From Gemmatimonadota bacterium (GTDB lineage Bacteria > Gemmatimonadota > Gemmatimonadetes > Longimicrobiales > Gaopeijiaceae): a DNA stretch of 64,000 bases. The DNA lies in contig JADFSR010000009.1 of NCBI GenBank assembly GCA_022560615.1, positions 1-64,000 of the forward strand. The letters are read 5' to 3'. The translations under genes were made by a program, and so were the position numbers. Below, one piece after another: positions 57,666-64,000 of this stretch; the stretch's first letter is position 1; each line of letters begins with the position of its first letter. The notes beneath the pieces were generated by a model that was given only the letters and a program-made list of their open reading frames with translations, did no database searches and was not told where the DNA came from.

Positions 57666-58568
57666 CTATGAGGGTTCTTCTTCACTCTCGAGCCACGCCG
57701 ACCACCACAGCTCCGCCAACATGTCCGCACCCGCGGCGAGGCGCCGGGCGGCGAAGTCGCGTGTCGCTGCCTGCGTGGGGGCTTCGGGATCGAAGCCGAT
57801 GTCACGCTCGAGGCGATATAGCTCGGCGACGTGGCTGTGCGACTCCTCGAGGTAGGCCCAAACGGCGGCACGAGCCGCTCCCGCGACGGAAGGGGGCGAG
57901 CCCTGCCTTGCCCGACCGTCCACGTCCGCCTGCGTGAGGTGCGCCTCCACGAAACCGCTCTCAAATCGTGCGTGGAACGAGCGATCGTCCGTATATCCCT
58001 CAGGGTTTGGCACACCGGCCGACCAGCCGTTGAAGTGGATCGTGGTGTGGTGCGGCTGCGACGCATCGGTGACGTAGTGGCCGAGGATGCCTGCGTCGTT
58101 GAGGATGCGCGCCTCGATCCACTGCTTCCGCTGGACATCGTCTTCGGAGCGCCACCTCCGCCACCCGGTGACAATCCGTTGGTAGACTTCAATGATGCGG
58201 TACGGCAGGAAGCCGCCGTCGCGCTCCGGCTTCTCGAGCCCCGAGTCGTAGAGTGCCTTCAGGAAAGTGAACCGGTCCGCCGCGTCCAGCGCGCCGTTGG
58301 GGATGTTCTCCAGATCGATGTAGTGGTCGTAGCTCCAGGCCTGGTCCATCTCTCGGAGGTCGGGGTCCCGCCACCGATCGGGTTCTGCGTCGAGGTAGAC
58401 CAACTGGTCCGCGGCGCCTCGGAAGAACGCGGGCATGGCGGAGGGCAGCACGCCCGTGGCGGTCCGAGCCGCCATCTCGTGACCGACCGACCCCCAGCGC
58501 GGTGGCGCGGGGTCATCGGTGGTGCCGCCGCCGGTGAGCAGTGCGGTGATGAGCCAAGTCTTGAGCAT
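57666..58568 (-). CDS. Secreted S1/P1-like zinc nuclease/phospholipase-C-fold protein
   Basis: 300 residues from ATG 58568 with GAGGAAG five bases upstream. After a short export signal the mature N-terminus carries the family signature PRWGSVGHEMAARTA (Trp/His zinc ligands), then WSYDHYIDLENIP, and LGHYVTDASQPHHTTIHFNGW, the His-rich zinc-ligand segment shared by S1/P1 nuclease and bacterial phospholipase C. Three zinc ions expected. Nucleic acid or phospholipid substrate cannot be separated by eye. Confidence 0.75.
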   Translation of the reverse strand: MLKTWLITALLTGGGTTDDPAPPRWGSVGHEMAARTATGVLPSAMPAFFRGAADQLVYLDAEPDRWRDPDLREMDQAWSYDHYIDLENIPNGALDAADRFTFLKALYDSGLEKPERDGGFLPYRIIEVYQRIVTGWRRWRSEDDVQRKQWIEARILNDAGILGHYVTDASQPHHTTIHFNGWSAGVPNPEGYTDDRSFHARFESGFVEAHLTQADVDGRARQGSPPSVAGAARAAVWAYLEESHSHVAELYRLERDIGFDPEAPTQAATRDFAARRLAAGADMLAELWWSAWLESEEEPS

Positions 58569-58702
58569 TGTGCTTCCTCGGACTGTGCTAGAGTCTTGTT
58601 GGAGCGCGACCGCGCCTCTGCCAACCCGGTCCGCCGTACCGTCCGGCCGACGCGTTCGTTCCGCGACCACCACCGCGTGGGGTGCCCGGTCACGGCCCGC
58701 GC

Positions 58703-60223
58703 TCAGGCGCCGCGGCCCAGCGCCCCGCGGTCGACCTTGCCCAGATGCGTCCTGGGGAGCTCGTCCACGAATACGACGTCGCGCGGGTACTTGTACGGCT
58801 CGAGGCGGTGCCTGGCCCACTCTTGCAACTCGGTCACGAGAGCGTCGTCGCTCCGGATCCCGTCCGCGGGGATCACGAACGCCCTCGGTTTCACGAGCCC
58901 GTCTTGGGTGGCGACTCCAACAACGGCGACCTCATCGACCGCATCGTGCTCCAACAGACAGTCCTCCAGCTCCGCCGGCGATAGCCACTTTCCGCTGACC
59001 TTGAGCATGTCGTCCGCGCGGCCGGAGTAGGTGACATAGCCGTCCGCATCGATGCTGATCATGTCGCCCGAGACGTACCACTCGCCCCGGAAGCCGTGCC
59101 GGGTTTTCTCAGCCTGCTGCCAGTACCCCTTGGCGAGGGAGTCGCCGCGGACCCAGAGGTGCCCAATCTCGTTCGGCCCGACCTCTGATCCGTCTTCGTC
59201 GCAAGCTTTCACGTCGAAACCGGGCACGGCCTTGCCGAGGGTTCCGAGTCGCACGTCGTCGGGGCGGTTGGAAATGAAGATGTGCCACATCTCCGCCGTG
59301 CCGAGGCCGTCCAGCAGCGGAGCTCCGAACAGCTCGTCCCACCGCCGATGGAGCTCCGCGGGCAGCGCTTCTCCCGCCGACGTCGCCAGCCTGATGCACG
59401 AGAGATCCTGCGCCTCGGCGTCCGGGTGGCTCACGAGGTGGTTCACCATCGTCGGCACGTTCACGAGGATGGTCGGGCGGAACGAGGCGATCTTCGCGAA
59501 GAGCGTCTCGGGGGTGCAGCGCTCGGGAAAGAGCGCCGTAGTCGCGCCGACCGAGAAGGGGAAGAGGAGGTTGGTGCCCGTCGCGTATCCGAAGAAGAGC
59601 TTCGGCACCGAGAGCGTGACGTCTTCGGGGCCTATCTCGAGCAGCGCCTGCCCGTACAGCTCCGTCGTATTCACGAAGGAGCGATGACTTTGCACGACCG
59701 CCTTGGGACGGCCCGTCGTGCCGCCGCTGAATAGCCAGATCGCGGCGTCGTCCTTGTGCGACGGGAAGACGGGGTGCTCGTCAGGGAGTGCCGCGAGTCG
59801 CTCCGCATGGCCATCGCCACCGAGGCCGATCAGCTCTGGCCGATGCCGTGCGCCCTCGAGGGCCAAAGTGAACTCGGGCAGCACGTCAGCGCCCACCAGA
59901 GCTACGCGCGCACGCGTATAATCGAAAAAGTACCGGATCTGGTCCCTCTTGAGATGCGGGTTCACCATGACCACGACCGCCCCGAGGCGCACGATACCGA
60001 AGAGGGCGCCGACGTAGTCCGCTCCGTCGGGCAGTGCGATCATGACGCGCTCCTCCGGACGCACGCCCGCGTCGGCGAGCAGATTCGCGTACTTGCCGGA
60101 GAGCGCAGCGACTTCGCGATACGTGAGCGCACCTTCGTCCGTCAGGAGCGCGCGACGATCACCGCGGCCGTCGTCGAGGCGTTGGCCGAGGAAGTATTGG
60201 AAGATGTTGAGGTCGTCGGGCAC
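58703..60223 (-). CDS. Benzoate-CoA ligase family protein, probably 2-aminobenzoate-CoA ligase
   Basis: 506 residues from GTG 60223. ANL-superfamily adenylating enzyme: P-loop-like WLFSGGTTGRPKAVVQSH, VPTMVNHLVSHP, DGLGTAEMWHIFIS, EWYVSGDMISIDADGYVTYSGRADDMLKVSGKW and the catalytic Lys in RTHLGKVDRG. Close in motifs to benzoate-CoA ligases. Since the divergent operon encodes anthraniloyl-CoA monooxygenase, anthranilate is the likely acid. Makes the aryl-CoA thioester in the cytoplasm using ATP. A promoter at about 60264-60293 faces it. Confidence 0.87.
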   Translation of the reverse strand: MPDDLNIFQYFLGQRLDDGRGDRRALLTDEGALTYREVAALSGKYANLLADAGVRPEERVMIALPDGADYVGALFGIVRLGAVVVMVNPHLKRDQIRYFFDYTRARVALVGADVLPEFTLALEGARHRPELIGLGGDGHAERLAALPDEHPVFPSHKDDAAIWLFSGGTTGRPKAVVQSHRSFVNTTELYGQALLEIGPEDVTLSVPKLFFGYATGTNLLFPFSVGATTALFPERCTPETLFAKIASFRPTILVNVPTMVNHLVSHPDAEAQDLSCIRLATSAGEALPAELHRRWDELFGAPLLDGLGTAEMWHIFISNRPDDVRLGTLGKAVPGFDVKACDEDGSEVGPNEIGHLWVRGDSLAKGYWQQAEKTRHGFRGEWYVSGDMISIDADGYVTYSGRADDMLKVSGKWLSPAELEDCLLEHDAVDEVAVVGVATQDGLVKPRAFVIPADGIRSDDALVTELQEWARHRLEPYKYPRDVVFVDELPRTHLGKVDRGALGRGA

Positions 60224-60338: not shown

Positions 60339-61094
60339 ATGCCGGTGCACCGCCTGTCCGATATGACATGGGAAGAGGTCCGCGACACGGACCGCGTTCG
60401 CGCCGTGGCGATCCTGCCTGTCGGCGCGGTCGAGGCGCATGGTCCCCATTTGCCGCTTGGGACCGACGTGATCATCGCCGAAGCGATGGCGAAGTCCGGC
60501 GCGGAGAAGCTCGCGAACGACGGACGCACGGTCTTGATTCTGCCACCGCTCTGGTACACCGCCGCGGCCTTCGCGAAGGCTTTCCCGGGGACCATCGGCG
60601 TGGGGGCTGACACCGTTCGCAGGCTCATCCATGAGATCGGGACTGCGCTCCTGGAGCAGGAGATCCGGACGCTCGCGATCGCCAACGCGCATCTCGACCC
60701 CGAGCACGTCGCGACGCTACGCGCTGCCGCGGACGAAGGTCCGGATGGACTGCGGGTCGTGTTCGTGGACCTGACCCGGAGCGCAGCGGCCGGCCGTCTC
60801 ACCGACGAGTTCCGGACCGGTGCCTGTCACGCCGGACAATTCGAGGGTAGCGTGGTCCTGGCCGAGTCGCCGTCGCTGGTGCGTTCGGACGTGGCCGCAG
60901 GGCTCGAACCGATCCCCGCGTCGCTCACCGACGCGATCCGGGACGGGAGATCGACGTTCGCCGAGGCGGGCGGTCCTCGTGCCTACTTCGGCTGGCCGGC
61001 TCAGGCGACCGCGGAGGAAGGCCGCGAGACGGTCCGTGTTCTAGGGGAGTTGCTCGCCGAGGCGGTCGTCGCCGGAGAGGAGGCCAGGCTTTGA
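60339..61094 (+). CDS. Creatininase family amidohydrolase-like protein
   Basis: 251 residues from ATG 60339. N-terminal metal motif is intact: ILPVGAVEAHGPHLPLGTD (Glu, His, Asp). The later family motif NGHGGN reads ANAHLDP, keeping the His, and HAGE.ETS reads HAGQFEGS, so one metal ligand may be changed. Known members hydrolyse cyclic amides such as creatinine. In the anthranilate operon it could open a cyclic amide or have another hydrolytic part; unproven. Overlaps the SDR gene by TTGA. Confidence 0.82.
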   Translation: MPVHRLSDMTWEEVRDTDRVRAVAILPVGAVEAHGPHLPLGTDVIIAEAMAKSGAEKLANDGRTVLILPPLWYTAAAFAKAFPGTIGVGADTVRRLIHEIGTALLEQEIRTLAIANAHLDPEHVATLRAAADEGPDGLRVVFVDLTRSAAAGRLTDEFRTGACHAGQFEGSVVLAESPSLVRSDVAAGLEPIPASLTDAIRDGRSTFAEAGGPRAYFGWPAQATAEEGRETVRVLGELLAEAVVAGEEARL

Positions 61095-61864
61095 ACCTGA
61101 CTGGAAAGACCGCCGTCATCACGGGTGGTGGGCGGGGAGTGGGTGCTGCAGCGGCGTATGCGCTCGCCGACGCAGGCGCGACAGTGGCGGTCGCCGCGCG
61201 CAACGAGGAGCAAGTCGTCGACGTTGCGGCTCAACTCCGGTCCCGCGGCTACGAGGCGTTCGCGTTCCGCTGCGACGTGACCGACCCCCACCAGGTGCGA
61301 GATCTCGCGCTCTCGTCGGTAGAGACCATGGGGAGGGTCGACATCCTCATCAACAACGCGAGCACCGCGACGTCTAACCCGCTGCATGGCGTGAAGCTGA
61401 CCGAGTGGAATCACGTCATGGCGGTGAACGCCACGGGCACCTTCCTGTGTACGCAAGCGATGTATCCCGGAATGGTGGAACGGGGGTGGGGACGTGTCGT
61501 GAACGTCGCCGCCATCGCTGGAATCGTCGGTGGCCGGGACCTATCGGCGTACTCCGCGGCCGAGCACGCGGTCGTCGGATTCACGAAGGCGATCGCTAGA
61601 GAGGCCGAGGGCACGGGGGTCACCGTGAACGCCGTGTGCCCAGGCTACGTGGATACGCCGCTGACGGACGAGACGATCGCGCGCAGGATGCAGCGTGTGG
61701 GACAGACGTGGCACGAAGCGATGACCGCGATCCTCGAGGAGGCTGGTCAGCCGAGGCTGATCCGCGCGGACGAGGTCGCCGAGGCGATCATGCCTCTGCT
61801 CGCCGACGACGCGAGCGAGACAAACGGCCAACTGGTCGTGATCGACGGCAAGGACGGCCCGTGA
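61091..61864 (+). CDS. SDR-family protein lacking catalytic Ser and Lys
   Basis: 257 residues from TTG 61091. Rossmann nucleotide motif TAVITGGGRGVGAAAAYAL and RVDILINNAS are good. The active site is changed: the catalytic Ser of N-[IV]-[AS]-S-x-A-G is Ala (NVAAIAG) and YxxxK reads Y-S-A-A-E, giving Glu for Lys (GAG codon). Tyr and the later NAVCPGYVDTPLT remain. Such an SDR would be inactive as an ordinary dehydrogenase or work by another mechanism. In related pathways this position holds a hydroxyacyl-CoA-type dehydrogenase. Overlaps RidA by GTGA. Confidence 0.85.
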   Translation: MNLTGKTAVITGGGRGVGAAAAYALADAGATVAVAARNEEQVVDVAAQLRSRGYEAFAFRCDVTDPHQVRDLALSSVETMGRVDILINNASTATSNPLHGVKLTEWNHVMAVNATGTFLCTQAMYPGMVERGWGRVVNVAAIAGIVGGRDLSAYSAAEHAVVGFTKAIAREAEGTGVTVNAVCPGYVDTPLTDETIARRMQRVGQTWHEAMTAILEEAGQPRLIRADEVAEAIMPLLADDASETNGQLVVIDGKDGP

Positions 61865-62274
61865 CCTACGAGCACATCAACCCCGAGGAGCTCGGTGTGC
61901 CACGCGGTTGGACGAACGGCATGCTCGCGCCGAAGGACGGCCGTATCCTGTTCGTCGCGGGGCAGGACGCTGCCGAGGCGGGCGGCGAGGTCGTCACGGA
62001 CGACTTCGTGCAACAGTTCGACCTCGTCCTCGGAAAAGTCCTCACGGTCGTGCGCGAGGCAGGTGGGGGTCCCGAGGACGTGGGCCGCATGACGATCTTC
62101 GTGACCGAGCTCGACGAGTACCGGAGCGCTCGGCGCGAGATCGGAGAGAGGTACCGCGCGCACATGGGCAAGCACTTTCCGGCGATGGCGCTGGTGGAAG
62201 TGCGCGGGCTCCTCGATCCCGGCGCCAAGGTCGAAATCGAGGCCACGGCCGTCATCAGGGACTTCAGCGTCTAG
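61861..62274 (+). CDS. Cytoplasmic RidA family protein of the anthranilate operon
   Basis: 137 residues from GTG 61861 (GTGA overlap). One RidA/YjgF domain: WTNGMLAPKDGRILFVAGQDA, DVGRMTIFVTELDEYRSARR, FPAMALVEVRGLLDPGAKVEIEATAV. The substrate-binding Arg of classical RidA (in PAR.) falls at FPAMALVEV, where no Arg is seen, so this belongs to a Rid subfamily other than classic RidA. Probably helps to hydrolyse an enamine intermediate made from 2-aminobenzoyl-CoA (inference from context). Confidence 0.82.
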   Translation: MTYEHINPEELGVPRGWTNGMLAPKDGRILFVAGQDAAEAGGEVVTDDFVQQFDLVLGKVLTVVREAGGGPEDVGRMTIFVTELDEYRSARREIGERYRAHMGKHFPAMALVEVRGLLDPGAKVEIEATAVIRDFSV

Positions 62275-62278
62275 GCGC

Positions 62279-63076
62279 GTGTTCGAACCCGCATCGTTCC
62301 TGTTCAGCCTGAGCGAGGAAACAGGCGTAGCGACGATCACGCTCAACCGGCCCGATCGGCTCAACGCGCTCACCTTCGAGGTTTACCAGGAGCTGCGGCG
62401 GGCGTTCGACGCGCTTCACGACGACGAGTCCGTGCGCGTGGTCGTGATCACCGGCTCGGGGCGCGCCTTCTGTTCGGGTGGCGACGTCGAGCAGATCATC
62501 GGCGCGCTCTTCGAGCGCGACTTCCGTGGCCTGCTCGAGTTCACGCGCATGACGTGCGATCTCGTGCTCTCGATGCGACGGTGCCGAAAGCCCGTTATCG
62601 GCGCGCTGAACGGGACCGTGGCGGGTGCGGGCGCGGTGATCGCGACGGCGTGCGACATGAGGATCGGCGCCGAGTCGGCGAAGATCGCGTACCTGTTCAC
62701 GCGGGTCGGCCTCTCGGGCGCCGATATGGGCGCGGCGTGGATGCTGCCGCGCATCGTCGGACTTGCGAAAGCGAGCGAGTTGCTCATGACCGGTGAGTTC
62801 ATCAGCGCACAGGAAGCGCACCGGATCGGATTGTACAACCGGGTCGTATCGGATGGCGGAGCCCTGGAGGCCGCCACTGAGCTCGCGGATATGCTCGCTC
62901 GTGGCCCGTCGTTCGCGCTCGAGATCACGAAGGACTCGTTGAACCGTGAGGCGAACATGGATCTCGCGACCGCGCTCGAGGCCGAGGCCCAGATCCAGGC
63001 CGCGCTCATGATGCACCCCGATTTCCGAGAGGCGTACGATGCCTTTACCGAGAAGCGGGACCCTGACTTCCTGTAG
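62279..63076 (+). CDS. Enoyl-CoA hydratase/isomerase family protein
   Basis: 265 residues from GTG 62279, four bases after RidA. Crotonase fold: ATITLNRPDRLNALTFEVY, VVVITGSGRAFCSGGDVEQI (oxyanion hole), KPVIGALNGTVAGAGAVIATAC, and GLSGADMGAAWMLPRIVG around the second oxyanion and acid/base site. It likely acts on a ring-reduced or ring-opened CoA intermediate of the 2-aminobenzoate pathway. Confidence 0.88.
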   Translation: MFEPASFLFSLSEETGVATITLNRPDRLNALTFEVYQELRRAFDALHDDESVRVVVITGSGRAFCSGGDVEQIIGALFERDFRGLLEFTRMTCDLVLSMRRCRKPVIGALNGTVAGAGAVIATACDMRIGAESAKIAYLFTRVGLSGADMGAAWMLPRIVGLAKASELLMTGEFISAQEAHRIGLYNRVVSDGGALEAATELADMLARGPSFALEITKDSLNREANMDLATALEAEAQIQAALMMHPDFREAYDAFTEKRDPDFL

Positions 63077-63115
63077 ATCCGTGCCCGATACCACCTCGAT
63101 GCACGGGAGGAGCTC

Positions 63116-64000
63116 GTGAGGATCGCCGTCGTGGGCGGCGGCCCGTCCGGCCTCTACTTCTCCATCCTCATGAAGCGAGCCGACCCGGCGAACGAGATCC
63201 TCGTTCTCGAGCAGAACCGGCCAGACGACACGTTCGGCTTCGGCATCGTATTCAGCGATGCGACGATCGCCGAGGTCGAGAGCGCCGACGAGGAGACGTA
63301 CGCCGCGATCACCGCCCACTTCGTGCACTGGGACGACATCGACGTCTACTACGGTGGGGAGGTGATCCGGAGCACGGGCCACGGCTTCAGCGGCATGAGC
63401 CGGCAGACCCTGCTCACCGTCCTGCAAGAGCAGGCGGCGGCGCTGGGCATCGACGTCCGGTACGAGACCACCGTCACCGAGCTGGACGAGTTGCGCTCGT
63501 ACGACCTGATTGTGGGCGCGGATGGGGCCAATTCGACCGTCCGCGAGCTGATGAAGGATCGCTTCGCGCCGACGTTCGATTGGCGCCCGAATCGATTCGT
63601 GTGGCTGGGCACGACGAAGCCGCTACCCGCCTTCACGTTCTACTTTCACGAGAACGAGCACGGACTGTGGCGGGTGCACGCGTACCAGTACGAGCCGGGG
63701 CATTCGACGTTCATCGTGGAGTGCACGGAGAAGACGTGGCGCTCGGCGGGGATGGATGGTGCATCGGAGGAGGAGACACTCGCCTACTGCGAGACGCTCT
63801 TCGTGAAGGAGCTCGAGGGACACCCGCTGATCCCGAACAAGAGCGTGTGGCGGAGCTTCCCCACGATTCGGAACCAGCGCTGGTCTGTGGGCAACGTCGT
63901 GCTCATCGGCGACGCGGTGCATACGGCACACTTTTCAGTCGGGTCCGGCACGCGCATGGGCATGATGGACGCCATCGCGCTTCGGGACGCTCTGATGGTG
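63116..64000 (+). CDS. Anthraniloyl-CoA monooxygenase, N-terminal part (cut by window end)
   Basis: GTG 63116 with GGGAGG five bases upstream opens a frame that runs off the end (295 codons). Flavoprotein hydroxylase motif RIAVVGGGPSGLYFSILMK, then GFGIVFSDATI, RFVWLGTTKPLPAFTFYF, HENEHGLWRVHAYQYEPG, and a second FAD motif GNVVLIGDAVHTAHFSVGSG. These match the N-terminal half of bifunctional anthraniloyl-CoA (2-aminobenzoyl-CoA) monooxygenase/reductase and of salicylyl-CoA 5-hydroxylase. The C-terminal old-yellow-enzyme-like half would be beyond the edge; its presence would separate the two functions. Confidence 0.85.
   Translation, partial: MRIAVVGGGPSGLYFSILMKRADPANEILVLEQNRPDDTFGFGIVFSDATIAEVESADEETYAAITAHFVHWDDIDVYYGGEVIRSTGHGFSGMSRQTLLTVLQEQAAALGIDVRYETTVTELDELRSYDLIVGADGANSTVRELMKDRFAPTFDWRPNRFVWLGTTKPLPAFTFYFHENEHGLWRVHAYQYEPGHSTFIVECTEKTWRSAGMDGASEEETLAYCETLFVKELEGHPLIPNKSVWRSFPTIRNQRWSVGNVVLIGDAVHTAHFSVGSGTRMGMMDAIALRDALMV

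Follow-up and report, generated by a model that had tools for sequence, protein, structure and literature searches.

A conserved short-chain dehydrogenase/reductase lacking its catalytic Ser and Lys in an anthraniloyl-coenzyme A operon of Gemmatimonadota: a candidate pseudoenzyme

Halohydrin dehalogenases are derived from short-chain dehydrogenases/reductases (SDRs); their catalytic Lys is replaced, the triad reads Ser-Tyr-Arg and the dinucleotide site has been lost. In SDRs, the Lys residue also contacts the ribose of the cofactor. It has been described that the catalytic Ser of SDRs polarises the carbonyl and that the Lys lowers the pKa of the catalytic Tyr (PMC7540600). As for metabolic context, the 2-aminobenzoyl-coenzyme A (anthraniloyl-CoA) pathway of Azoarcus evansii has a core of CoA ligase and monooxygenase/reductase (PMC4539516, PMC3534580), and the first ring product of the pathway is 2-amino-5-oxo-cyclohexene carboxyl-CoA (PMC4539516). 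Here, we analyzed a stretch of 64,000 nucleotides from a Gemmatimonadota bacterium of the family Gaopeijiaceae (GCA_022560615.1, contig JADFSR010000009.1, positions 1 to 64,000; hereafter the window), in which an operon with the same core contains an SDR gene at 61091-61864. The encoded protein probably has a new, non-standard job. With confidence somewhat short of even, we favor the reading that it is a conserved, reductase-dead pseudo-SDR, which perhaps partners with an intact paralogue.

The open reading frame (ORF) encodes 257 amino acids between a TTG start and a TGA stop, and by fold and homology its product is a member of the classical SDR superfamily. It matched Pfam adh_short with 195 bits (cut-off 26.6), it contains the cofactor motif TGxxxGxG (TGGGRGVG, residues 11-18), and the AlphaFold2 model had an intact fold with a mean predicted local distance difference test score of 95.6. 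The nearest PDB chains to this model were classical SDRs, e.g. 9fe6 and 3-hydroxybutyrate dehydrogenases, with a template modelling score of ~0.9 and ~35% identity. Alignment with 3-hydroxybutyrate dehydrogenases and FabG-type SDRs (PRK12429; PDB 9c5h, 6zzq and 9fe6) covered the full length. Unlike these enzymes, the window SDR lacks the catalytic Ser and Lys, and its score for the nearest NCBIfam family, 3-hydroxybutyrate dehydrogenase PRK12429, was below the curated cut-off (219.3 vs 258 bits). A first-pass annotation, which was made from the letters of the window, had described a retained Rossmann fold and a retained catalytic Tyr, in agreement with the motif, with Tyr154 and with the model.

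The same annotation had read the catalytic Ser as Ala and the YxxxK motif as YSAAE, and the alignment placed these changes at the expected positions: Ala141 stands 13 residues before the Tyr, where the catalytic Ser is missing, and Y154-S-A-A-E158 does not match YxxxK. The Asn of the catalytic tetrad is kept as Asn113. Two further changes had been overlooked, namely Tyr150 to Asp (Glu in the species of the same genus described below) and Gly91 to Ser, by which the NNAG motif became NNAS in the window SDR; the congener retains NNAG. In an alignment of 50 rows including the window SDR, Ser141 was present in 49 and Lys158 in 47, the only other Glu158 rows being two orphan copies from another genus, and all 47 homologues that keep Lys158 have invariant Ser141, Tyr154 and Gly91. 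Comparison with the DNA of a sister operon (L112) revealed that one base change suffices for each of Ser TCC to GCC, Tyr TAC to GAC and Lys AAG to GAG. Among sites that are invariant in 13 outgroup operons, the window SDR has changes at 6 of 58, whereas the seven other genes of the operon together have changes at 16 of 903 (Fisher p 0.001). Of the six SDR changes, five are also present in the congener, including those at Ser141, Tyr150 and Lys158, which are all radical changes in the active site. At none of the changed conserved sites was a basic residue seen that could compensate. Judging from these comparisons, the loss is concentrated on the active site and not scattered through the gene.

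The congener, G001, has Ala141, Glu150, Tyr154 and Glu158 at the DNA level. Its SDR ORF (L111:12635-13411, equal to G001:C101:17634-18410) contains a +1 and a +2 insertion in G-rich runs, which cancel out; between them the reading frame is shifted for ~44 codons, Tyr included, and no stop arises. When this 44-codon active-site stretch was compared with the window in the window's frame, 11 codons had silent and 6 had replacement differences, with a ratio of nonsynonymous to synonymous changes (dN/dS, NG86 values throughout) of 0.13, and 14 of the 19 base differences were located at codon position 3 (p 0.0004). The insertions thus appear to be either very recent or assembly errors. For the whole SDR gene dN/dS was 0.21, compared with 0.10-0.18 for its operon neighbors. 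The third-position bias and the low dN/dS imply that the Ala/Glu protein has been constrained in both lineages after their split. A sequence error in the window was rejected as an explanation, because the congener has the Ala, the acid at position 150 and the Glu as well, and a pure pseudogene is disfavored by dN/dS, including the value of 0.10 for the Glu-containing pair in the second genus.

To what extent are these changes shared? The named relatives are mostly Gemmatimonadota metagenome-assembled genomes (MAGs), one of them labelled Longimicrobiales, and the key genomes are draft assemblies, probably MAGs. The operon gene order recurs within the family and beyond. With the exception of the congener, all operon homologues compared have a normal Ser/Tyr/Lys, so that the Ala and Glu are not a conserved trait of anthranilate operons, a point for which the first-pass annotation had proposed an alignment of such homologues. 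Normal homologues were also what it had anticipated for a lone variant or a sequence error, but the window copy is neither: the congener shares the Ala, acid, Tyr and Glu, and Lys158Glu recurs in a second genus. The SDRs of sister genera (e.g. L112, L114 and L163) resemble the window SDR in fold, in their location between creatininase and RidA genes and in sequence (60-73% identity). They differ in keeping Ser141, Tyr150, Tyr154, Lys158 and Gly91 and, where the operon is fully covered, in the presence of an acyl-CoA dehydrogenase. In close relatives with enough sequence, the gene for this enzyme is located between those of the hydratase and the monooxygenase/reductase (L112:11053-12207); it is missing in both the window operon, where the gap at 63076-63116 is only ~40 bases, and the congener. 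Relocation of the gene was rejected, since the best other acyl-CoA dehydrogenases in the window genome (G000) and in G001 are only 36-38% identical. A search of 395 genomes of the phylum with the Ala/Glu pattern matched only G000 and G001, and relaxing the pattern to Ser or Ala added only G138 (G139 was outside that 395-genome draw). In targeted literature searches, no paper on a natural YxxxE SDR was found.

The second genus, g34, has the SDR alone at the original locus (L154, L155, L158 and L162), with all other operon genes absent. The gene is flanked by a uracil-DNA-glycosylase gene (plus an S1/P1 nuclease gene in two species) on one side and a MOSC gene on the other, as they flank the operon elsewhere, and no monooxygenase/reductase was detected in the g34 genomes with an orphan SDR. 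Two of the four g34 species (G138 and G139) have Lys158Glu and Gly91Ser and keep Ser141 and Tyr150; of the remaining SDRs one is canonical and one, from G136 (L154:8025-8777), has a TAA at codon 26. Another genome of the same genus, G034, has no SDR copy. The changed invariant sites shared between the window and g34 are 91 and 158 (hypergeometric p 0.009). In the tree, g34 is divided into E- and K-type pairs and groups with g6, not with the window's genus g1, and the two Glu lineages are not joined. Because the tree separates these lineages and the Ser91 codon differs (TCG in the g34 Glu pair, AGC in the window), common ancestry of Lys158Glu in g1 and g34 is disfavored, and the change appears to have arisen independently in the second genus.

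A second SDR is present in each of the six species whose operon-type SDR is altered or orphaned; it is 73-100% identical to that of the window genome (L101, G000:C12:82075-82833) and ~50% identical to the window protein. L101 has Ser/Tyr/Lys and adjoins fadB-like, CoA ligase and thiolase genes. The paralogue was detected in none of the 18 checked species with a normal operon SDR and, among the genera checked, only in g1, g34 and g24. We regard this co-occurrence in the genomes as a lead, not a proof.

Based on these observations, the window SDR would descend from an NAD(H)-dependent ketoreductase that belonged to the operon. In the window's genus its proton-relay residues would have been dismantled by Ser to Ala, Lys to Glu and Tyr150 to an acid, whereas purifying selection has preserved the fold, TGxxxGxG, Asn113, Tyr154 and the greater part of the sequence. 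Ketone reduction is predicted to be gone or very weak because the carbonyl-polarising and Tyr-pKa-lowering residues are gone, and the protein probably still binds a dinucleotide. Given the continued constraint on the protein, a function that depends on the fold is to be expected, possibly with NAD(H) bound. The step of which we are least sure is that it may act, without catalysis of its own, as a subunit or scaffold for the 50% identical paralogue or for the operon enzymes, and that any reductase activity that is left would come from the paralogue. Such a pairing agrees with the co-occurrence of the two genes and with the persistence of the SDR where the operon was lost. The loss of the catalytic motif relative to orthologues, with the gene kept by purifying selection, corresponds to a pseudoenzyme, and the likeness to pseudoenzymes as outlined in PMC10211241 lies in a maintained fold without a conserved catalytic motif; inactivity here is a prediction. 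Halohydrin dehalogenases are similar in having an SDR fold with the catalytic Lys replaced, but the Ala-Tyr-Glu and the intact TGxxxGxG of the window SDR place it outside that group. The first-pass annotation had suggested a changed reaction, such as binding or hydratase-like chemistry, or a structural role. A conserved altered state is supported by the congener, by selection and by recurrence, although these data do not single out a specific role and nothing points specifically to hydratase chemistry.

Several points weigh against a conserved pseudo-SDR. Of the six SDR genes that are altered or orphaned, two have lesions (the double indel in G001 and the stop in G136), which fit a gene that is becoming dispensable, although assembly error is possible. 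The window's genus is represented by two species, G000 and G001. The association with the paralogue rests on two lineages, g1 and g34, and may therefore reflect shared history. In addition, a pure scaffold would not need the retained Tyr154 and cofactor motif. A bolder proposal, which we consider unlikely but worth stating, is that the same two changes, Lys to Glu in YxxxK and Gly to Ser in NNAG, turned an anthraniloyl-CoA ketoreductase into an SDR pseudoenzyme on at least two occasions, and that the resulting family has outlived the pathway in the role of an obligate partner of the intact paralogue, or of its NAD(H)-dependent regulator.

The main rival to a conserved pseudo-SDR is a repurposed catalyst, which we judge unlikely, if still a serious candidate. 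Tyr154 and the new carboxylates (Glu158 and Asp/Glu150) would form a negative pocket for a cationic or imine/enamine species, e.g. to reduce or tautomerise a 2-imino/2-amino ring CoA ester from the monooxygenase/reductase. The gain of two acidic residues in an active site that retains Tyr154, Asn113 and the Rossmann motif agrees with this, as does the first ring product mentioned above (PMC4539516). The acid gains also match principles described for imine-reducing enzymes, in which Tyr/Asp/Glu donors and negative potential are common, the charge of the SDR Lys is detrimental to iminium, and Lys-to-Asp gains occur in beta-hydroxyacid dehydrogenases (PMC7540600). However, polarisation of the imine would fall to the Ser, which is lost too, and a RidA-type deaminase is still present in the operon for imine hydrolysis. 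Moreover, the g34 species with Lys158Glu have no detected monooxygenase/reductase, and thus such a ring CoA ester cannot explain the recurrence of this change, which argues against a pathway-specific substrate.

We consider it rather improbable that the gene is a decaying leftover of a rerouted pathway, in which the SDR was no longer needed, its active site was lost and only the overlap of its start and stop with both neighbors kept the gene in place. These 4-base coding overlaps are real, the window and the congener lack the acyl-CoA dehydrogenase gene that the fully covered sister operons have, and a paralogue is present; the compensating indels in the congener, the stop codon in G136 and the absence of a copy from G034 point in the same direction. 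On the other hand, decay explains the lesions but not the low dN/dS, which is 0.13-0.21 within the genus and 0.10 for the g34 pair, nor the placement of changes in the active site instead of across the invariant sites, nor the convergence at sites 91 and 158; the g34 copies, furthermore, have no operon to couple to. Finally, a weak canonical ketoreductase/dehydrogenase, in which another residue substitutes for Lys158 and Ser141, is very unlikely: the protein retains Tyr154, Asn113, its Rossmann motif and its fold, and a very reactive substrate could make such changes tolerable, but the tetrad has only two of its four residues left, one of the replacements reverses the charge, and the changed conserved sites include no basic residue that could compensate.

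The genes around the SDR are listed in Table 1. The gene order is CoA ligase, creatininase-type hydrolase, SDR, RidA, enoyl-CoA hydratase, 2-aminobenzoyl-CoA monooxygenase/reductase, tryptophan dioxygenase and kynureninase. The monooxygenase/reductase gene runs past the window to contig position 65446 (full ORF 776 amino acids), and is followed on the same contig by tryptophan 2,3-dioxygenase and then kynureninase genes, named from sequence resemblance. The compact anthranilate catabolic operon of the first-pass annotation was therefore right in essence, but it extends beyond the window. The predicted gene products make up a route from tryptophan via kynurenine and anthranilate to anthraniloyl-CoA, in which the place of the SDR was probably ring-ketone reduction. 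Compared with the Azoarcus evansii pathway, whose CoA ligase and monooxygenase/reductase core it shares, the operon adds tryptophan dioxygenase, kynureninase, the creatininase-type hydrolase and RidA, and the acyl-CoA dehydrogenase has been lost in the window's genus. The creatininase-family gene lies directly upstream of the SDR in most homologous loci; its distant relatives include the 3-dehydro-scyllo-inosose hydrolase IolN (46 bits), a likeness by which it may be a ring-opening hydrolase of the pathway. Next to the CoA ligase, an S1/P1-nuclease-like gene is located at 57666-58820; its listed GTG start overlaps the CoA ligase gene, and the true start is probably an internal ATG (MLKTW...).

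Table 1. Coordinates of the SDR gene, its altered or retained codons and the neighboring genes in the window.
Feature	Position	Strand	Evidence
Putative pseudo-SDR; TTG start; S141A, Y150D, Y154 kept, K158E, G91S	61091..61864	+	DNA, alignments, Pfam adh_short, AlphaFold2 model
Codon 91, AGC (Ser), NNAG to NNAS	61361..61363	+	DNA, alignment
Codon 141, GCC (Ala), replacing catalytic Ser	61511..61513	+	DNA, alignment
Codon 150, GAC (Asp), replacing conserved Tyr	61538..61540	+	DNA, alignment
Codon 154, TAC, catalytic Tyr kept	61550..61552	+	DNA, alignment
Codon 158, GAG (Glu), replacing catalytic Lys	61562..61564	+	DNA, alignment
Benzoate/anthranilate-type CoA ligase, divergent	58703..60223	-	TIGR02262, 483 bits (cut-off 375)
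Creatininase-family hydrolase; stop overlaps SDR start by 4 bases	60339..61094	+	Pfam Creatininase, 177 bits
RidA/L-PSP family, imine/enamine deaminase-type; start overlaps SDR stop by 4 bases	61861..62274	+	Sequence, profile matches
Enoyl-CoA hydratase family	62279..63076	+	NCBIfam PRK08258, 373 bits (cut-off 330)
2-Aminobenzoyl/salicylyl-CoA monooxygenase/reductase, N-terminal part	63116..64000	+	PRK08255, 391 bits on partial

Few enzyme families are as large as the SDRs, and an automatic pipeline would label the window protein as a dehydrogenase. Its triad, however, is broken, whereas selection holds the remainder of the sequence nearly as tightly as in active relatives, and the same unusual Lys-to-Glu change seems to have arisen independently where the whole operon around the gene was deleted. 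The SDR step appears to be dispensable along with the acyl-CoA dehydrogenase, which may help to place it beyond the first ring product of the anthraniloyl-CoA pathway. The intact, Glu-only, Ala plus Glu, orphaned and broken copies would provide a natural and testable series for the transition from an enzyme to a non-enzyme or to a new enzyme.
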